In this document: piece by piece, positions 2,628 to 30,903 of the stretch | Position numbering within the stretch: position 1 is the stretch's first letter | Layout of the letters: every line of letters begins with the position of its first letter | Assembly (NCBI RefSeq): GCF_020618775.1 | Contig: NZ_JAESVB010000006.1 | Location: 186,001-250,000 of the forward strand | DNA length: 64,000 nucleotides | Direction: 5' to 3' | Source: Acidisoma silvae | GTDB taxonomy: Bacteria > Pseudomonadota > Alphaproteobacteria > Acetobacterales > Acetobacteraceae | Position numbers and translations under genes: made by a program | The notes under the pieces: generated by a model | Database searches by the model: none | The model's input: the letters and a program-made list of their open reading frames with translations, nothing else | Told to the model about the DNA's origin: nothing

Positions 2628-3182
2628 GGGGAACTTGGCTCCGGCGCGCGCCGCTTGGGCACGCGGCCGCCTTGGGGCGGCGGATTTGAAGTGGGGGACG
2701 TGACGGGCCTGCAATCGACATGAGGGATGACCGGGCTCTCGCCAGCGAAGCATGCGCTGTGGGGAGGAAAGCGGTCATGAAGGTCGAACAGATCCCAATC
2801 AAACTCAGGGGCTGCGACGGCTCTGGGCCACGCAGCCGGTAAAAACGGTCAGACATCCGCCGTCCGTCCCCTCCGCCCCCGTCGATGCTCCGGGCGGCAT
2901 CTGGCCGCGGCGGCTTTCGGGGAATGGTCGAGCAGACGACCAGACGAGTGGATTGCGGTGGAGCTTCAAAAAGGGGGCGCAAAGCGATGAGCCCAGCCTG
3001 CTTCGAATCTCGGCTTTAAAGATGGCCTAAAGACTGTGCACATGCAAGGGCGCGCCCCGCCCGGCGCAGGAAGAAGGCTAACGATTTAGTCATTTCACTA
3101 AATTCCGTTGCCTTTCAACGAGAAACGCTGTTATTCGCAGATCCGACATGAAGTTGAGACCCGCCGCTCCAAGGTTCCTTTC
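2628..3182. other. rne / amidase divergent intergenic region
   Basis: About 555 bases between the two divergent genes. It must hold both promoters and a long 5' untranslated leader for rne (RNase E leaders are often long and autoregulatory; that part is family knowledge). Short open frames here lack conserved character and overlap one another. The only clear symmetrical element is the AT-rich inverted repeat at 3084-3103. No tRNA or small RNA could be recognised by eye. Confidence 0.5.
3084..3103. promoter_or_regulatory. AT-rich inverted repeat upstream of amidase
   Basis: ATTTAGT and ACTAAAT are perfect 7-bp inverted arms separated by 6 bases, about 80 bases before the amidase start in otherwise GC-rich DNA. 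It could be an operator or a small hairpin in the leader. Function is not known. Confidence 0.25.
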
Positions 3183-23442: not shown

Positions 23443-25095
23443 ATGGCGACGCGACATTGGCTTCTGGCCCTTGCGGCCGGTATTGGACTGGGGACCGCGC
23501 TCAGCGCGCCGCCTCGCGCATTTGCGGCGGATGACGGCGGCACGCTGACCATCTCGGACGCGCAGTTTCTGTGGACCTGCGGTTTCAGCCCCTATAACTC
23601 GTCCTCGAACTTCCTCGCGGTCGGGCCAGTGTATGAGACGCTCGCCTTCGTCAATACCTTGCAGAGTGCCAAGGTGACGCCCTGGTTGGCCACCGATTAC
23701 ACATGGAGCGCCGACAACAAGGTTCTGACTTTCACGATCCGCAAGGGCGTGAAATGGACGGACGGCACGGACCTGACGCCTGCCGACGTCACCTTCACAT
23801 TCAACATGCTGAAGAAATTTCCGGCGCTCGATCTCAACACGATCTGGTCGCAGCTCAGCAGCGTGACGCAGAGCGGTGATGACAAGGTCGTCTTCACCTT
23901 CAAGAGCCCGGCCGTTCCCTATTTCTACTATGTCGCCGATCAGGTCGGCATTGTCCCCGAGCACATCTGGGGCAAGGTCAAGGACCCGACCACCTACCAG
24001 GACGCCAGTCCCGTCGGCACCGGCCCCTATACGATCAGCCGCTGTACGCCGCAGGATATCAGCTACACGCGCAATGCCAATTACTGGCAGCCCGGCCTGC
24101 CCAAGATCGCGCATATCGAATATCCGGCCTTCACCACCAACCCGCCGGCCAACCAGGCTTTGTCCACCGGACAGGCGCAGTGGGGCAGCCAGTTCATTCC
24201 GAATGTCAAAACGGAATATATGGCGAAGGACAAAGAGAATCACTACTGGTATCCGCCGACCGTCAATGTCGCGATGTTCATCAACCAGACCAATCCGATC
24301 CTGAAGGACGTCACCGTCCGCAAGGCGCTGGTCTATGCCTTGGACAAGAAGCGCATCGCCATGATCGGCGAATATGGCTATGAGCCCGCCGCCAATCAGG
24401 CCGGCATCGTGACGCCGACCTTCGAAAGCTGGCTGGACAAGAAGCAGCTGGCCGACGCCGGCTACAGCTACGACCCCAAGAAGGCGATCGCGCTGCTGGA
24501 ACAGGCCGGCTACAAGCGCGGGTCCGATGGCATGTTCACCACGGCTGACGGCAAGCCGCTTGAATTCACCATCATCAACCAGAGCGCCTATACTGATTGG
24601 GTGGCAGCCCTTCAGGTTGCGGCCAATCAGTTGAAACAAGTCGGCATCAAGCTGAACGTTTCCAACCTCGCCGGCACCGATTATTTCGCGAAGCTCGCCA
24701 ACGGCCAGTTCGATCTCGCCTATGCCTATGAGTCCGGCGGACCGACGCCCTATTACGAGTTCCGCCAGTGGCTGTATGGACCGGCATCGGCCGCCATCGG
24801 CCAGGCCGCGACCACCAACTGGGAGCGCTATTCCAACAAGGATACCGATGCGCTGATCGACAGCTACGCCAATTCGACCGATGCGGCGAAGCAGCACGAT
24901 ATCCTGGTTCAGTTGCAGAAGGTGATGCTGGATGACGTGCCGCTGATCCCCATCACCGAACAGGTCGATTGGGATCAGTATTCCACGAAGCAGTTCGTGG
25001 GCTGGCCGACCCCGGAAGATCCGTATGCACAGCCGATGGCGGGCTATACCTTCCCGGATTGGGCCGTTGTCATGCTGCATCTGCACGAAAAGTAA
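23443..25095 (+). CDS. ABC transporter substrate-binding protein, family 5
   Basis: Periplasmic solute-binding protein (SBP_bac_5) of 550 residues with a Sec signal (MATRHWLLALAAGIGLGTALS, cut near AFAADD). Family landmarks: LTFTIRKGVKWTDGTDLTPADVTFTFNML, ASPVGTGPYTI, NPILKDVTVRKALVYALDKKRIA, PKKAIALLEQAGYK. Family 5 binds di- and oligopeptides but also oligosaccharides, opines and nickel; because the neighbours are a sugar kinase, an SDR and a DeoR regulator, a carbohydrate-type ligand is more likely than a peptide. The ATG has GGAG 7 bases before it. First of five transporter genes. Confidence 0.92.
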   Translation: MATRHWLLALAAGIGLGTALSAPPRAFAADDGGTLTISDAQFLWTCGFSPYNSSSNFLAVGPVYETLAFVNTLQSAKVTPWLATDYTWSADNKVLTFTIRKGVKWTDGTDLTPADVTFTFNMLKKFPALDLNTIWSQLSSVTQSGDDKVVFTFKSPAVPYFYYVADQVGIVPEHIWGKVKDPTTYQDASPVGTGPYTISRCTPQDISYTRNANYWQPGLPKIAHIEYPAFTTNPPANQALSTGQAQWGSQFIPNVKTEYMAKDKENHYWYPPTVNVAMFINQTNPILKDVTVRKALVYALDKKRIAMIGEYGYEPAANQAGIVTPTFESWLDKKQLADAGYSYDPKKAIALLEQAGYKRGSDGMFTTADGKPLEFTIINQSAYTDWVAALQVAANQLKQVGIKLNVSNLAGTDYFAKLANGQFDLAYAYESGGPTPYYEFRQWLYGPASAAIGQAATTNWERYSNKDTDALIDSYANSTDAAKQHDILVQLQKVMLDDVPLIPITEQVDWDQYSTKQFVGWPTPEDPYAQPMAGYTFPDWAVVMLHLHEK

Positions 25096-25109
25096 GAGCC
25101 TGGCCTATC

Positions 25110-25136
25110 GCCGGTGCCGCCTTGCGCGGCACCGGC
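25110..25136 (+). promoter_or_regulatory. Intercistronic stem-loop after binding-protein gene
   Basis: GCCGGTGCCGC and GCGGCACCGGC are perfect 11-bp arms around a 5-base loop, 14 bases after the binding-protein stop and before the permease. There is no T-tract. Such hairpins after SBP genes usually protect the upstream mRNA from 3' decay or attenuate the downstream genes, giving more binding protein than permease. Confidence 0.6.
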
Positions 25137-25211
25137 CCCCTTCCGGCAGTGCCGCCGGACCAGCAGGTTGACCGGGCATCATCCTGCCCCGCTTCACGAG
25201 ACAAGATGTAG

Positions 25212-26195
25212 ATGCGCTATATTCTGCGACGGCTTGGCTTTTTCATCGTGACGCTCTGGGCGGCGATGACGGTCAATTTCTTTTTGCCGCGGCTGATGCC
25301 CGGCGACCCCGCCATGGCCATGATCGCGCGCTTTCACGGCCGTTTGAGCGGGCAATCGCTGCATGCCATGGAAGCCGCCTTTGGCGTCAATACCAATCAA
25401 AGCCTGATCGCGCAGTATTTCGCCTATCTCGGCGACAGCCTCACCGGCCAGTTCGGCCGGTCGCTGACCTTCTTCCCCGACACCGTCAGCCATGTCGTCT
25501 TCATGGCCTTGCCCTGGACGCTGGGCCTGGTCGGCGTCACCACCGTCATCGCCTTCATCCTCGGCACGCTGATCGGCATGATCGGCGCCTGGACGCGCGG
25601 CGGCTGGTTCGACAGCGTGCTGCCGCCGCTCTTCATCATCCTCTCGGCCTTCCCCTATTTCTGGATCGGCCTTGTCGCCATCCTCATCTTTTCGATTTCG
25701 CTCGGCTGGCTGCCGACCGGCTTCGGCTATACCAATGGCGAGGCCGTCACCTTCACCCTGCCCTTCATCTGGGATGTGGTTCGTCACGCCTTTCTGCCGG
25801 CAGGGACGATCGTCATCACCTCCATCGGCGGCTGGATCCTGACCATGCGCAACAATATGATCATGGTGCTGAACGAGGATTACGTGCGCATGGCTCGCGC
25901 CAAGGGCCTATCCGCCTCGCGGATCATGTTCGACTATGCCGGGCGCAACGCCATCCTGCCCAATCTCAGCGGTTTCGGCATGTCGCTCGGCTTCGTCGTC
26001 AGCGGCGCCATCCTGGTGGAATATGTCTTCTCCTATCCCGGCGTCGGCTACATGATGCTACAGGCGGTGCTGAACGAAGACTTTCCGCTCATGCAGACGC
26101 TGTTCCTGTTTATTACCCTCGCCGTGCTGATCGCCATTCTGGTGGTGGACGGGGTGACGGTATTGCTTGATCCGCGCACGCGGAGGTCGTCATGA
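25212..26195 (+). CDS. ABC transporter permease (DppB/OppB-like)
   Basis: Inner-membrane permease of the BPD_transp_1 family, 327 residues, about six helices. The N-terminus MRYILRRLGFFIVTLWAAMTVNFFLPRLMPGDPA is characteristic of OppB/DppB proteins. The EAA loop that contacts the ATPases reads NEDYVRMARAKGLSASRIMFDYAGRNAILP. The end overlaps the next permease start by four bases. The ATG at 25212 is kept although its Shine-Dalgarno is weak. Confidence 0.92.
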   Translation: MRYILRRLGFFIVTLWAAMTVNFFLPRLMPGDPAMAMIARFHGRLSGQSLHAMEAAFGVNTNQSLIAQYFAYLGDSLTGQFGRSLTFFPDTVSHVVFMALPWTLGLVGVTTVIAFILGTLIGMIGAWTRGGWFDSVLPPLFIILSAFPYFWIGLVAILIFSISLGWLPTGFGYTNGEAVTFTLPFIWDVVRHAFLPAGTIVITSIGGWILTMRNNMIMVLNEDYVRMARAKGLSASRIMFDYAGRNAILPNLSGFGMSLGFVVSGAILVEYVFSYPGVGYMMLQAVLNEDFPLMQTLFLFITLAVLIAILVVDGVTVLLDPRTRRSS

Positions 26196-27124
26196 GCGCC
26201 GTCCTGCCGGAACGCCCGGCCAAACGCCGCCCCGCGATTGTGCGCGGCCTCTCCACCCTCGGCCAAGCCATTCTGTCGAACCGCAAGGCCACGGTCGGCG
26301 CGGTTCTGCTGATCATCTGCATCGTCATGGCGGCCGTGCCGAACCTGATCGCGCCCGGTGATCCGAATGCGGAAAACTTCATGCCCGGTCAGGGGCCTTC
26401 CGCCGATAACTGGCTGGGCACCACCTCCTACGGGCAGGATATTTTCGCGCAATTCGTCTGGGGTGCCCGGGATTCGCTGATCATCGCCGTGGTCGCGGGC
26501 CTGCTGTCGACCGTGCTATCGGCCATCATTGGCGTCGCCGCCGGCTATCTGGGCGGCATGGCGGATGGGCTGCTGTCGATGATGACGGATGTTTTTCTGG
26601 TCATCCCCGCCTTTCCGCTCGTCATCGTGCTGGCCGCCTATTCCAAGTCCGGCGGCAATGGCATGATCATCGCCGTGCTGGTGCTGACCGGCTGGTCCTA
26701 CGGCGCGCGACAGTTGCGCGCGCAGGTTCTGTCCCTGCGGCATCGGGAATTCCTGACCGCCGCGCGCCTGCGGGGTGAGCGCAGCTGGCGCATCATCACC
26801 CATGAAATCCTGCCGAATATGATTTCGCTGCTCGTCGCCAATTTCCTTGGCGCGTCCGTCTACGCCATCCTGACCGCCGCCGGGCTGCAATTCATCGGCC
26901 TCGGCAATATCAATGCGAATAGCTGGGGCACGATGCTGTACTGGGCGCAGAATAACGAAGCCTTGCAGGCGGGCATTCCGCTTTGGGCGATCGTGCCCGG
27001 CCTCGGCATCGCAACTTTGGGCGGCGCCTTTGCTTTGCTCAACTATGCTTTCGACGAAATCAGCAATCCGGTGCTGAAACCTGCACGCCGCAAGAAGCGC
27101 AGCAAACGGGGAGCGCCGTCATGA
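26192..27124 (+). CDS. ABC transporter permease (DppC/OppC-like)
   Basis: Second permease subunit, 310 residues. An OppC_N-like first helix (LSNRKATVGAVLLIICIVMAAVPNLIAP) is followed by DNWLGTTSYGQDIFAQFVWGARDSLIIA, a strong DppC signature, and the EAA loop HREFLTAARLRGERSWRIITHEILPN. The C-terminus is basic (KPARRKKRSKRG). It overlaps the upstream permease by four bases and the downstream ATPase by four bases, so the three are translationally coupled. Confidence 0.92.
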   Translation: MSAVLPERPAKRRPAIVRGLSTLGQAILSNRKATVGAVLLIICIVMAAVPNLIAPGDPNAENFMPGQGPSADNWLGTTSYGQDIFAQFVWGARDSLIIAVVAGLLSTVLSAIIGVAAGYLGGMADGLLSMMTDVFLVIPAFPLVIVLAAYSKSGGNGMIIAVLVLTGWSYGARQLRAQVLSLRHREFLTAARLRGERSWRIITHEILPNMISLLVANFLGASVYAILTAAGLQFIGLGNINANSWGTMLYWAQNNEALQAGIPLWAIVPGLGIATLGGAFALLNYAFDEISNPVLKPARRKKRSKRGAPS

Positions 27125-28086
27125 GCGACACGATCCTCGACGTGCGTGACATCGTCGTTGAATATACGACGTCACGCGAACCGGCCCGCGCGGTCGATCA
27201 TGTCAGCTTCACGCTGGACCGTGGCGAGTTCCTGGGCATCGTCGGCGAATCCGGCTGCGGCAAATCCACCATGCTGTTCGCCATCGCGCAGTTGCTGACG
27301 CCCCCGGCGCAGCTTGTCTCGGGCGAGGTGATCTTCAAAGGCCGCAATATGGTGGGCCTGCGCGGCGGCGAATTGCGCAGCATCCGCTGGCGCGATTATT
27401 CGGTCGTCATGCAAAGTGCGATGAACGCGCTCAACCCGGTGAAGACGGTCGGCGCGCAGTTCGAGGACACGATGCGCGCCCATGGCCAGGGCAAGACCGC
27501 CGGCATCCGCGCCCGCTCACGCGAAGTCATGGCGCTCGTCGGCATCGACGCCATCCATCTCAAAAGCTATCCGCATCAATTGTCCGGCGGCATGCGCCAG
27601 CGTGTCATGATCGCCATGGCGCTGCTGCTCTCCCCCGATCTGGTGGTGATGGATGAGCCGACATCGGCGCTCGATGTCGTGGCCCAGCGGTCGCTGATGG
27701 TGCAGATCAAGGATTTGCAGAAGAAGCTCGGTTTCGCCGTCATCTTCGTCACCCACGACATGTCGCTGGTCGGGCATTTCTCGGACCGGCTGGCGGTGAT
27801 GTATGCTGGCAAGATCGTGGAGATCGGGCCGACGCGGCCGCTCTTCGCCGCTCCGCAGCACCCCTATACGCGCGGCCTGCTGGAAAGCTTTCCCTCCGTC
27901 TACGGACCTAAAGTGCAGTTGAAGGGCATTCCGGGATCGCCGCCGGACCTGACGGACCTGCCCAGCGGCTGCCGCTTTCGCCCCCGCTGCGGCCAGGTGA
28001 TGCCGCGCTGCGCCGAGATTGAGCCCGACCTTTACCCCAGCGGCGATACGCGCTCCCGCTGCCTCCTGTTCGAAGAAAGGGCGTGA
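27121..28086 (+). CDS. ABC transporter ATP-binding protein (DppD/OppD-like)
   Basis: Cytoplasmic ATPase of 321 residues. Walker A GESGCGKST (about 42-50), signature LSGGMRQRV, Walker B LVVMDEPTSALD, switch His in FVTHDMSLV. The C-terminal oligopeptide/dipeptide domain has PDLTDLPSGCRFRPRC with further cysteines (CGQVMPRCAEIEP), the pattern linked to an iron-sulfur cluster in some DppD proteins. ATG at 27121 lies in the TCATGA overlap with the permease; a longer upstream frame in the same phase only reads through the permease gene. Confidence 0.92.
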   Translation: MSDTILDVRDIVVEYTTSREPARAVDHVSFTLDRGEFLGIVGESGCGKSTMLFAIAQLLTPPAQLVSGEVIFKGRNMVGLRGGELRSIRWRDYSVVMQSAMNALNPVKTVGAQFEDTMRAHGQGKTAGIRARSREVMALVGIDAIHLKSYPHQLSGGMRQRVMIAMALLLSPDLVVMDEPTSALDVVAQRSLMVQIKDLQKKLGFAVIFVTHDMSLVGHFSDRLAVMYAGKIVEIGPTRPLFAAPQHPYTRGLLESFPSVYGPKVQLKGIPGSPPDLTDLPSGCRFRPRCGQVMPRCAEIEPDLYPSGDTRSRCLLFEERA

Positions 28087-29093
28087 AGGTCATGGATAGG
28101 AATGATCACGCACCGCTGCTGCAAACGGTTGGACTGACCCGGCATTTTCGCATCGGCGGCCTGTTCAGCAGCGCCAAGCTGCATGCGGTCGATGACCTCA
28201 GCCTCACCATCCGGCCGCGCGAAATCGTCGCCGTTGTGGGCGAAAGCGGTAGCGGCAAAAGCACCATCGCCCGCCTGCTGGCCAAGGTTTACGAGCCGAC
28301 GGACGGCGATATCCTGTTCCGTGGGCGGTCCCTGCATGAGGTGAAGTCCCGGCGCGACCTGCTTGCCTATCGCGGCGAAGTGCCGATGGTGCTGCAAGAC
28401 CCCTTCGCCTCCCTCAACCCGGTCCATACCATCGGCTATACGCTGGACCGTGGCCTGGCCTTGCATCAGCCGAAGCTGACGGCGGCCGAGCGCGAAGTTG
28501 AAGCCATCCGCGCCTTAGAAGCGGTGGGCCTGTCCCCCGCGCGGCAGGTTCTGGCCAAATATCCGCATGAAATGAGCGGCGGGCAGCGCCAGCGCATCGG
28601 CTTTGCCCAGGCTCTGTCTTACAAGCCGAAGCTGGTTCTGGCCGATGAGCCGGTTTCGATGCTGGACGTCTCCATCCGCATCGGCGTCCTCAACCTCATG
28701 GCGAAGCTCTGCGCGGAGGAAGGCATTTCCTTCCTCTACATCACGCATGACATCGCCAGCGCCCGCTATGTCGCGCATCGCATCGTCGTCATGTATGCCG
28801 GCCGCGTGGCCGAGACCGGACCGGCGGAACAGGTGCTGCATCACCCGGTCCATCCCTATACGCGCCTGCTGCTGTCGGCGGTGCCGGACCCGAAGGCGCC
28901 GATCACCATCACCGCCGCCGATACCGGGGAGCCGCCGCGCGTGGTCAACCCCGGCCCCGGCTGCCGTTTCCGCCAGCGCTGCCCGCTGGCGATCGACATC
29001 TGCGCCCGCGTGACGCCGGACCTGGCGGACACCGTGCCGGGCCATGCGGCCGCGTGCCATGTGACGGCGCCGCAGGCGGGGCTGGCGGCTTAG
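28083..29093 (+). CDS. ABC transporter ATP-binding protein (DppF/OppF-like)
   Basis: Second ATPase, completing a five-component importer. Walker A GESGSGKSTIA, signature MSGGQRQRIG, Walker B LVLADEPVSMLD, switch YITHDIASA, and a C-terminal oligopeptide domain with GCRFRQRCPLAIDICARVTPD. The D-loop reads SMLD, where many relatives have SALD. Start is either the GTG at 28083, overlapping the previous stop (GTGA), or the ATG at 28092. Last gene of the operon that starts with the SDR gene. Confidence 0.92.
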   Translation: MKVMDRNDHAPLLQTVGLTRHFRIGGLFSSAKLHAVDDLSLTIRPREIVAVVGESGSGKSTIARLLAKVYEPTDGDILFRGRSLHEVKSRRDLLAYRGEVPMVLQDPFASLNPVHTIGYTLDRGLALHQPKLTAAEREVEAIRALEAVGLSPARQVLAKYPHEMSGGQRQRIGFAQALSYKPKLVLADEPVSMLDVSIRIGVLNLMAKLCAEEGISFLYITHDIASARYVAHRIVVMYAGRVAETGPAEQVLHHPVHPYTRLLLSAVPDPKAPITITAADTGEPPRVVNPGPGCRFRQRCPLAIDICARVTPDLADTVPGHAAACHVTAPQAGLAA

Positions 29094-29136
29094 GAAGGGC
29101 ATTCCGGCCGGAATGAGGGTAAGCGGTCATTTGACA

Positions 29137-29157
29137 TTTTGGGCCTCAACCCCAAAA
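29137..29157 (+). terminator. Possible terminator hairpin after ABC importer operon
   Basis: TTTTGGG and CCCAAAA are perfect 7-bp arms with a 7-base loop, 43 bases after the last importer gene and upstream of the ABC-F leader. The stem is flanked by A/T bases but no proper T-tract follows, so terminator function is tentative. Confidence 0.4.
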
Positions 29158-29239
29158 GCCCATCCACGATATCAGGTATTGTGAATCCAGCCAGTGTTTG
29201 CTTAGGTTAATGGTGTCATTTCGAACAGGAGGGGGAGCG

Positions 29240-29311
29240 GTGCTACAACATTGCTTCCATAGCCGAACCCGTGGACCTGTTTTTGCCCCGCACTTGATTT
29301 CGCGGGGCTGA
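29240..29311 (+). CDS. Putative regulatory leader peptide upstream of ABC-F gene (23 aa)
   Basis: A GTG codon 7 bases after a perfect AGGAGG (29227-29232) opens 23 codons starting VLQHCFHSRT and ending at TGA 29309-29311. This is the strongest ribosome-binding site in the region, stronger than that of the ABC-F gene itself. The 3' half of the leader lies in a 7-bp GC stem (GCCCCGC 29285-29291 with GCGGGGC 29302-29308). A tentative promoter upstream is TTGTGA (29179-29184), 18 bases, TAGGTT (29203-29208). ABC-F resistance genes are often controlled by drug-stalled leader peptides, which is the proposed role. Not shown to be translated. Confidence 0.55.
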   Translation: MLQHCFHSRTRGPVFAPHLISRG

Positions 29312-29327
29312 TCGAGGAACGCATCGT

Positions 29328-29385
29328 CGTCTCATCGTCAGCCTTTTCGGCATGATTTTTCGTGCCATTCTGATGTGATGAGACG
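29328..29385 (+). promoter_or_regulatory. RBS-sequestering stem-loop before ABC-F start
   Basis: CGTCTCATC (29328-29336) pairs perfectly with GATGAGACG (29377-29385), nine bases, ending three bases before the ATG at 29389; further pairing (GTCAG with CTGAT) continues after a 2-base bulge. An inner hairpin GGCATGA-TTTT-TCGTGCC (29349-29366) fills the loop. The GATGAG that would serve as Shine-Dalgarno for the ABC-F gene is inside the 3' arm, so the folded form should block translation. Confidence 0.55.
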
Positions 29386-29388
29386 TAC

Positions 29389-30903
29389 ATGTCCCTGATC
29401 GCAATAAAAGACCTTTCGCTCACTCGTAACGCATCCCTTTTCGTCGGACTCAGCTTTTCCATCGCCAGGGGCGACCGTCTTGGCCTAGTTGCGGCAAACG
29501 GACGCGGCAAATCCTCGCTCCTTCGCATCATGGCCGGAGAAGATGAGGCCACGACAGGAACGGTTACCGGCTCGCGGGGGCTTGCCGTCGCCTTCGCACC
29601 GCAGAACCCGCCCCAACACCTCCTGCCCTTAAGTTTTTATGATGCCGTCCGCGATGCTCTCGCCACTGACGACGCTGAAGCGGAGAGCTGGCGGATCGAC
29701 ATCCTGCTCGACGATCTTGCGGTTGACGAAAACATAAGACGACGCGCCGTTCGTAACCTGTCCGGGGGCTGGCAGCGCACCATGCTTCTCGCAAGAGCGG
29801 CCGTGGTGGAGCCTGATCTGCTCTTGCTGGACGAGCCAACGAACCATCTCGACATCGGCCGCATCGGCATATTGGAACGGTTTCTCGCGGCATTGCCTCG
29901 CGACTGCGCCATGGTCGCGGCAAGTCATGACCGTGCCTTTCTCGATGACGTGACGAATCGCACCCTGTTCCTGCGCCCTGAGGAAAGCACGGATTTCGCC
30001 CTGCCTTATTCCAATGCCCTTCAGGCGCTGGAAGAATACGACGCAGCCCGCGACCGACAATTCGAGAATGACATGCGGAAAGTCAGGGCATTGCGGCAGC
30101 AGGCGGCGAAGCTCAAAAACATCGGCATCAATTCCGGCTCCGACCTGCTGGTCGTGAAAACCAAGCAGCTTTCCGAGCGAGCCGACAAGCTGGAGGAACG
30201 GTCGCGCCCCGGGCATCAAGAGCGCTCAGCCGGAACGATCAAGCTGAGCAATAGCGGCACTCATGCCAAGGCGCTGGTGACAATCGACGATGCGACGATC
30301 ACGACGCCAGACGGGCGACTGTTATTCCGTACAGGGCGGTTATGGATCGAGAAAGGAGATCGTGTGGCTTTGCTTGGCGCCAATGGTGCGGGCAAGACGC
30401 AACTGGTCAAAAGATTGCAGGCAGCCTTTGTAACGCAAGATCCGAATATCCGAGGAGCGGCGAGCCTCAGAATCGGCTATTCCGATCAAGCGCTGTCTCA
30501 ACTCGATGCGTTTTCGACACCTTGGATGGCAGTCAAGCAGTCAAGCGGCCTGACCGACCCACAAGCACGGTCCCAACTCGCCGGGGCTGGGATCAGCATT
30601 GATGCCCAGACTGCGCCCGTCACTCGTCTATCGGGCGGGCAAAAAGCGCGGCTTGCGATGCTGATCCTGCGGCTGGTGCAGCCGAATTTCTACCTTCTGG
30701 ACGAGCCAACCAATCACCTCGATATCGAAGGCCAGGACTTGCTAGAAGGCGAGTTAGTCGAACAAGGCGCTGCCTGCCTTTTAATCAGCCACGACCGCGC
30801 CTTCGTTCGCGCCGTGGCAACACGGGTCTGGGCAATTTCAGATCGAAAACTCGTCGAAGTCGATGACCCTGACTTGATTTTTGATCTGTTGATGACCGGC
30901 TAA
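29389..30903 (+). CDS. ABC-F family ATPase (ribosomal protection or translation factor type)
   Basis: Two ABC domains on one chain with no membrane segment, 504 residues. Domain 1: Walker A AANGRGKSS, signature NLSGGWQRTMLL, Walker B LLLLDEPTNHLDIG. The interdomain linker, about residues 195-300, is charged and helical (DNMRKVRALRQQAAKLKN-like region) and would reach the ribosomal P site. Domain 2: Walker A GANGAGKTQ, signature RLSGGQKARLAM, Walker B FYLLDEPTNHLDIE. The length is close to short ABC-F proteins; composition is less GC-rich than neighbours, hinting at transfer. The leader ORF and masked RBS favour an inducible antibiotic-resistance role over a housekeeping EttA/Uup role, but this is inference. 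Confidence 0.85.
   Translation: MSLIAIKDLSLTRNASLFVGLSFSIARGDRLGLVAANGRGKSSLLRIMAGEDEATTGTVTGSRGLAVAFAPQNPPQHLLPLSFYDAVRDALATDDAEAESWRIDILLDDLAVDENIRRRAVRNLSGGWQRTMLLARAAVVEPDLLLLDEPTNHLDIGRIGILERFLAALPRDCAMVAASHDRAFLDDVTNRTLFLRPEESTDFALPYSNALQALEEYDAARDRQFENDMRKVRALRQQAAKLKNIGINSGSDLLVVKTKQLSERADKLEERSRPGHQERSAGTIKLSNSGTHAKALVTIDDATITTPDGRLLFRTGRLWIEKGDRVALLGANGAGKTQLVKRLQAAFVTQDPNIRGAASLRIGYSDQALSQLDAFSTPWMAVKQSSGLTDPQARSQLAGAGISIDAQTAPVTRLSGGQKARLAMLILRLVQPNFYLLDEPTNHLDIEGQDLLEGELVEQGAACLLISHDRAFVRAVATRVWAISDRKLVEVDDPDLIFDLLMTG

Follow-up and report, generated by a model that had tools for sequence, protein, structure and literature searches.

Background

In the erm and cat attenuators a ribosome stalled on the leader opens helix 1:2, and the 2:3 helix that then forms displaces the 3:4 helix masking the ribosome binding site (RBS). 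Biosynthetic attenuators classically combine a leader peptide with alternative stems. Among the ABC-F genes of Gram-positive bacteria, PMC10201436 describes cplR, vmlR, vmlR2 and lsaA as ARE-ABCF genes controlled by an upstream open reading frame (uORF), and msrD is described likewise. An arrest peptide, ApdP, is described for Alphaproteobacteria, and some proteobacterial ABC-F groups have been named candidate resistance factors by Murina et al. (PMC6723617). The locus considered here lies in a window of 64,000 nucleotides, the whole stretch of DNA analyzed, from the alphaproteobacterium Acidisoma silvae, and carries a putative leader peptide directly upstream of an ABC-F gene. The original prediction, made from this window, knew of no drug-sensing ABC-F leader described for this lineage, and no leader of an alphaproteobacterial ABC-F gene appears among the matches listed in a mainly open-access literature, most of them judged by title and opening lines of the abstract. 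We describe the leader and its RNA arms, compare them across homologous loci, and weigh the mechanisms that could account for them.

The leader and its RNA arms in the window

All features in this section are on the plus strand unless stated. A Shine-Dalgarno (SD) sequence AGGAGG at 29227..29232 is placed 7 bases 5' of a GTG at 29240, both at the positions originally given, and the leader ORF of 23 codons plus TGA (29240..29311), which reads VLQHCFHSRTRGPVFAPHLISRG up to its stop, is confirmed to the base. Its codons for the conserved R-T-R-G-P-V, as delimited by residue and codon counts over 89 distinct leaders, occupy 29264..29281. The GC stem seen in the last third of the leader is GCCCCGC/GCGGGGC (29285-29291/29302-29308), immediately 5' of the stop; we call its first strand arm 1 (29285..29291), assigned by covariation with arm 2. 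Comparative pairing assigns the other arms. Arm 2 (29302..29312) consists of GCGGGGC plus TGAT and can pair with arm 1 or arm 3. Arm 3 (29328..29343) contains CGTCTCATC, used in 3:4, and GTCAGCC, used in 2:3 and in the inner part of 3:4. Within 3:4 an apical hairpin with compensatory changes lies at 29349..29366, and arm 4 (29370..29385; CTGAT..GATGAGACG) contains the weak SD of the ABC-F gene. The perfect 9-bp stem CGTCTCATC/GATGAGACG (29328-29336/29377-29385) indeed ends 3 bases 5' of the ABC-F ATG at 29389, and the SD-like TGAGA (29379-29383) lies inside it. What the original prediction did not contain is the alternative 2:3 helix, in which GGCTGAT (29306-29312), running across the stop codon, is complementary to GTCAGCC (29337-29343).

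The computed fold of the leader region has a z-score of -3.9 for 29210-29410 and -4.4 for 29312-29400, and in neither case did any of 200 shuffles fold as well. Shuffled sequences reached the length of the 9-bp stem in 5 of 300 cases and that of the 7-bp leader hairpin in 11 of 300, and the 2:3 match in the window alone is not significant (153 of 2000). Because these single features are only moderately unlikely in shuffles, the case rests on comparison across loci. No Rfam family matched the window at gathering scores, and 10 further loci gave only a tRNA. On the minus strand an antisense ORF of 116 aa (window 29202-29552) overlaps the leader; it is probably a by-product of the GC-rich sequence.

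Upstream of the leader, an alignment of 17 loci shows TTG.. and TA...T consensus columns, which are not uniform; in the window they correspond to a promoter-like pair TTGTGA/TAGGTT (29179-29184/29203-29208, spacer 18). A scan with the plain sigma-70 consensus gave no site. A transcription start downstream of 29311, which the original prediction had named as speaking against it, is made unlikely by the aligned promoter-like columns that precede the leader, although these vary between loci and the sigma-70 scan was negative; the predicted start lies near 29215.

The ABC-F gene and its setting

The gene downstream encodes an ABC-F ATPase of 504 aa (29389..30903, plus strand) with two ABC_tran stretches. 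Its best NCBIfam model is ribo_prot_ABC_F (NF000355, "ribosomal protection-like ABC-F"), with 293 bits against a cut-off of 380; Uup scores 219 bits and the named ARE families 111-192 bits (cut-offs of at least 680), and the protein passes no curated ribosomal-protection model of NCBIfam. NF000355 matches 43 of 43 members of the ABC-F family at E 0.001, a count by E threshold only and not by the 380-bit cut-off. The gene has a GC content of 0.585 compared with 0.635 for the window, and a GC3 of 0.653 compared with 0.821 for the upstream neighbor and 0.697 for a downstream gene; in the tree it groups with genes of Kaistia and Taklimakanibacter (99/91). The low GC and this grouping together suggest horizontal acquisition. 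Directly upstream, at window 23443-29093, the ORFs read as a dipeptide/oligopeptide-type ABC transporter operon with a substrate-binding protein, two permeases and two ATPases, the last ATPase being the one checked with Pfam.

Conservation of the leader peptide

The comparison set consists of the window and 80 loci from genomes of named species, whose ABC-F homologues show 57-80% identity and which are, as far as placed, all from Alphaproteobacteria. The conserved leader sought at homologous loci is present in 75 of the 81, window included, and directly 5' of the ABC-F gene; that of L080 was found by the covariance model as well. The six without a leader are L033, L034, L035, L043, L055 and L038, the last at a contig edge with only 11 upstream bases. 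Four loci (L019, L048, L063, L066) keep the stem and the frame although their Gly-Pro is altered, and for that reason they are included among the leaders. With further loci added, 105 leaders were read in frame, giving 89 distinct sequences with the consensus H-x-R-[TQ]-R-G-P-V-x-A, and the conservation spans more than eight named families.

Among these 89, Gly is found in 87, Pro in 86 and Val in 69, the Arg at -5 in 60 and the Arg at -7 in 67. The entropy of the Gly codon is 0.09/0.09/1.52 by base and that of the Pro codon 0.24/0/1.30, and the codon after Val, the last before stem 1:2, is free to vary. Since the Gly and Pro codons are thus nearly invariant at their first two bases and free at the third, and the codon after Val is free as well, it is the peptide that is selected, up to Val. 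Of the 80 leaders checked, 70 begin in frame at a codon backed by an SD match of at least 4 nt. Six Bosea-type leaders (L009, L010, L014, L016, L017, L018) have neither a GTG nor an SD-backed start and keep the frame; they show an in-frame ATG approximately 7 nt 3' of a -10-like TATGAT or TATGCT (at about 2810-2830 of the locus), which suggests a leaderless uORF.

Pairing and covariation of the arms

Stem 1:2 and helix 2:3 were examined in an alignment of 47 leaders, and the off state in 26 close loci. The covarying stems sought in homologous loci are seen for 1:2 and for 3:4 with its apex. Pairing in stem 1:2, which begins one codon past Val, extends to 91.8% of cells, and 42 cells show double changes, with at most 54.0% and 12 in slid controls, although the variety of its pair types is no greater than in shuffles (158 of 500). 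Its sequence varies from GCCCCGC/GCGGGGC to GCCCTGCAAA/TTTGCAGGGC, and the encoded residues change from APR..SRG to ALQ..LQG. Ten leaders have early stops at varied places inside the stem, which itself stays intact (L022, L026, L040, L053, L057, L061, L069, L074, L076, L129), and in L127, L128 and L130 the ORF extends beyond it. As judged from these sequences, stem 1:2 is selected as RNA, apart from the peptide.

The end of arm 2 together with the stop codon, GGGCTGACC, is complementary to GGTCnGCCC or GTCAGCC located 9-39 nt 3', and this arm 3 pattern is present in 69 of the 75 leaders parsed; a pattern search did not find it in L013, L030, L056, L064, L076 and L089. Across the 47 leaders helix 2:3 has 89.6% paired cells compared with at most 57.2% in slid controls. 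Its 8 double-change cells do not exceed those of the controls (8 at -3 and at +3), and its 2 pairs with double changes do not stand out from shuffles (366 of 500). Conserved complementarity, not covariation, therefore supports 2:3.

In the 26 close loci, within which stem 1:2 is invariant, the off-state helices with the apex have 91.6% paired cells and 22 double-change cells (slid controls at most 47.8% and 5). Arm 3 and arm 4 were compared in 69 loci, 66 of them distinct; L013 was assigned by visual inspection, L063 was excluded, and the tblastn start differs from the ATG in L001, L058, L059 and L077. At least 7 Watson-Crick pairs in 3:4 are found in 25 of the 66 distinct loci compared with 5.5% of shuffles, and at least 6 in 41 of 66 compared with 18.9%; the sequence of arm 4 tracks that of arm 3 across subfamilies. 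Mutually exclusive hairpins, one of which masks the SD and the start, thus emerge from the comparison of loci, whereas the equilibrium fold of the window alone shows no switch.

Linkage to ABC-F genes, distribution and probable loss

A covariance model of the leader core was built from 47 leaders, including that of the window. Its matches fell in 11 of 385 genomes of the class, 11 of 11 preceding an ABC-F gene; in 24 of 398 genomes drawn phylum-wide, all 24 in Alphaproteobacteria and all 16 examined of these preceding an ABC-F gene; and in 8 of 120 genomes of the family draw at E 0.05, again 8 of 8 preceding an ABC-F gene. These draws overlap and each contains the genome of the window. Filtering was stricter, at the cost of weak matches, whenever a search spanned more than 40 genomes. 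The genome of the window itself has one clear match, and two weaker ones (E 2.4 and E 8.5) without an ABC-F gene.

The distribution of the ABC-F gene is patchy: at E 1e-120 it is present in 9 of the 289 genomes searched in the class; among these 9 the leader is found in 7, a weak match in one (L094, 22.7 bits) and none in one (L090). Within the genus, 2 of 5 genomes carry the ABC-F gene, and the second copy, at 50% identity, has a leader of the other stem type. The gene is also carried on 12 plasmid records, and the leader is present in all four that were fetched, of which two are typed as conjugative, namely L132 (Ketogulonicigenium pYP1) and L133 (Sinorhizobium meliloti pSymA).

The tree was built from 73 of 97 rows, after removal of 23 near-duplicates and L038, and was rooted at the midpoint. 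Homologues lacking both leader and stem, which the original prediction had regarded as contrary evidence, do exist in six tree rows (L033, L034, L035, L043, L055 and L090, with L033 and L090 identical), but they fall in one clade (100/100) among leader-bearing rows. Because the six form a single clade, one loss is the best reading, provided that the root lies outside them. The leader-less Kiloniella-type loci L033, L043, L055 and L090 have, upstream of position 3001 and behind a -10-like sequence, an ATG with three further codons and a TAA (MLAQ, MIAV or MLSE before the stop), which is possibly a replacement minimal uORF like those of Gram-positive bacteria; the same arrangement was not seen in L034 and L035.

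A probable translational attenuator and its alternatives

A layout of leader peptide, stems and 1:2, 2:3 and 3:4 pairings is strongly supported by the comparison across loci, and with it the leader peptide, RBS-masking stem and ribosome-dependent switch of the original prediction. We consider it probable that this layout acts as a translational attenuator, in which a ribosome stalled on the leader turns the ABC-F gene on. The leader would be translated constitutively. In the off state the ribosome would read to the stop, upon which 1:2 re-pairs or the terminating ribosome covers arm 2, and arm 3 would pair with arm 4 such that the SD and start of the ABC-F gene are masked. In the on state the ribosome would stall at R-x-R-G-P-V, and our best guess, by analogy with RAPP-like peptides, is that the P site then holds the Pro codon (29276-29278) and the A site Val. 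The front edge of a stalled ribosome lies about +15/16 from the first base of the P site, and with Pro in this site the message would be covered to approximately 29291, which is the end of arm 1. The freed arm 2 may then pair with arm 3 once this is transcribed, presumably by a kinetic choice, and arm 4 with the ABC-F start would stay open; the ABC-F protein made would in turn protect or rescue ribosomes. As the inducer we would favor, with little more than even confidence, a drug acting at the peptidyl transferase center or the tunnel. Macrolide stalling of the +X+ type at R-T-R or R-Q-R was considered and rejected, since with x in the P site the ribosome would leave arm 1 unreached, and 29 of the 89 leaders have another residue at the second Arg.

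Folding of 28 of the 81 loci bears on the order of these events. When arm 1 is covered and arm 4 is not yet made, the probability of 2:3 is 0.83-1.00 in all 28 loci; when arm 1 is free, as in the unstalled intermediate, it is 0.00-0.87, so that 2:3 forms in part. On the full-length RNA, covering arm 1 leaves 2:3 with an equilibrium probability of at most 0.10 in 22 of the 28 loci, including the window, and of more than 0.5 only in L022, L028, L029, L045, L060 and L078; in every state tried the SD of the window is 0.17 unpaired in equilibrium folding. The original idea that a stall changes the downstream fold and exposes the start is therefore consistent with a 2:3 helix formed kinetically before arm 4 is made, but not with equilibrium folding, which leaves the start of the window masked. 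Because the start stays closed at equilibrium even with arm 1 covered, switching would have to be kinetic, and the switch would need the timing of transcription and translation, on which classical attenuators depend as well.

The stall could have a cause other than a drug. RGPV may be an arrest sequence similar to RAPP or SecM that is relieved by the ABC-F protein itself or by a related ABC-F, such that low ABC-F activity leads to stalling and to more ABC-F, and a drug acts only through ribosome occupancy or titration of ABC-F. RGP makes up all but the last residue of RGPP, whose arrest was the most stable in the RAPP-like group, and ABC-F proteins are cited among translation-enhancing factors (both PMC12992588); in RAPP-like peptides it is the third residue that occupies the P site during the stall (PMC10987492), and here that codon would put the ribosome over arm 1. 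We nevertheless regard such self-sensing as unlikely: the fourth residue is Val in 69, Gly in 2 and Pro in none of the 89 leaders, 29 of 89 have another residue in place of the Arg before Gly, and a Pro in the A site, central to the published RAPP mechanism (PMC10951233), is Val here. Moreover, RAPP-like motifs are reported to cause no stalling in most of the E. coli and B. subtilis proteins that contain them (PMC10987492). It is plausible by analogy that a weakened RGP-type core arrests only ribosomes already disturbed, be it by a drug or by a shortage of ABC-F. Its broader form, a class-wide sensor in which RGPV stalls only when the peptidyl transferase center is disturbed or ABC-F runs short, and in which ribosome damage and not one particular drug sets the level of ABC-F, seems rather doubtful.

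The same arms could also be read as a device acting on transcription, by intrinsic or Rho-dependent attenuation, and premature termination is typical of Gram-positive ABC-F leaders (PMC10201436), while Rho has been proposed for a Sinorhizobium uORF (PMC12218461). A sequence scan of 29095-29400 found no terminator-like hairpin with a U-run, and stem 3:4 ends 3 bases 5' of the start codon; we consider this reading improbable. An attenuator sensing an amino acid through its charged tRNA would account for the pairing of leader peptide and alternative stems, the classical biosynthetic design, but the motif has no run of one residue, its codons vary synonymously, and an ABC-F gene lies downstream in every model match examined, all of which makes this very improbable. 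That a chance ORF met chance hairpins draws on the moderate rarity of the single window features in the shuffles above, and is in effect refuted: the leader is conserved in more than eight named families, its RNA covaries, and it is linked to ABC-F.

Comparison with known systems

With these alternatives weighed, the probable translational attenuator can be set beside described ones. From the erm and cat leaders it differs in peptide, gene and lineage, and it would share with them the design of a stall with 1:2, 2:3 and 3:4 pairings. The RAPP/RGPP peptides (the RQH family, ApdP and SecM) have in common with it an Arg-Gly-Pro core near the expected stall and an arrest peptide 5' of the regulated gene. 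They differ in that the fourth residue here is Val instead of Pro or Gly, the downstream gene is an ABC-F and the arrest is putative; the RGPV of the window falls outside the RAPP-like core (R/Q/H)-(A/G/D)-(P/G/S)-(P/G). The DUF1127 uORF of S. meliloti is likewise alphaproteobacterial and responds to a translation inhibitor, but it precedes another gene, a Rho mechanism is proposed for it, and its second half is dispensable (PMC12218461).

The Gram-positive ARE-ABCF uORFs are likewise short, with alternative hairpins and a masked SD directly 5' of the ABC-F gene, and have consensuses of 3-4 codons (MRI, MIN, MK[LQ], MAGN), typically with a terminator (PMC10201436). In contrast, the leader here is longer, a terminator was not found, a conserved R-x-R-G-P-V is present, and matches so far come only from Alphaproteobacteria. 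The longer conserved motif suggests that the arrest would be sequence-specific. If the attenuator reading is true, leader-peptide control of ABC-F factors extends from Gram-positives to a large Gram-negative class, plasmid copies included; the leader offers a compact conserved peptide motif, and its inducer would indicate the natural compound or stress that ABC-F counters in these bacteria. Leader control of ABC-F genes is already known, and what sets this one apart, besides a terminator not being found, is the lineage and the long, conserved RGPV arrest-like peptide.
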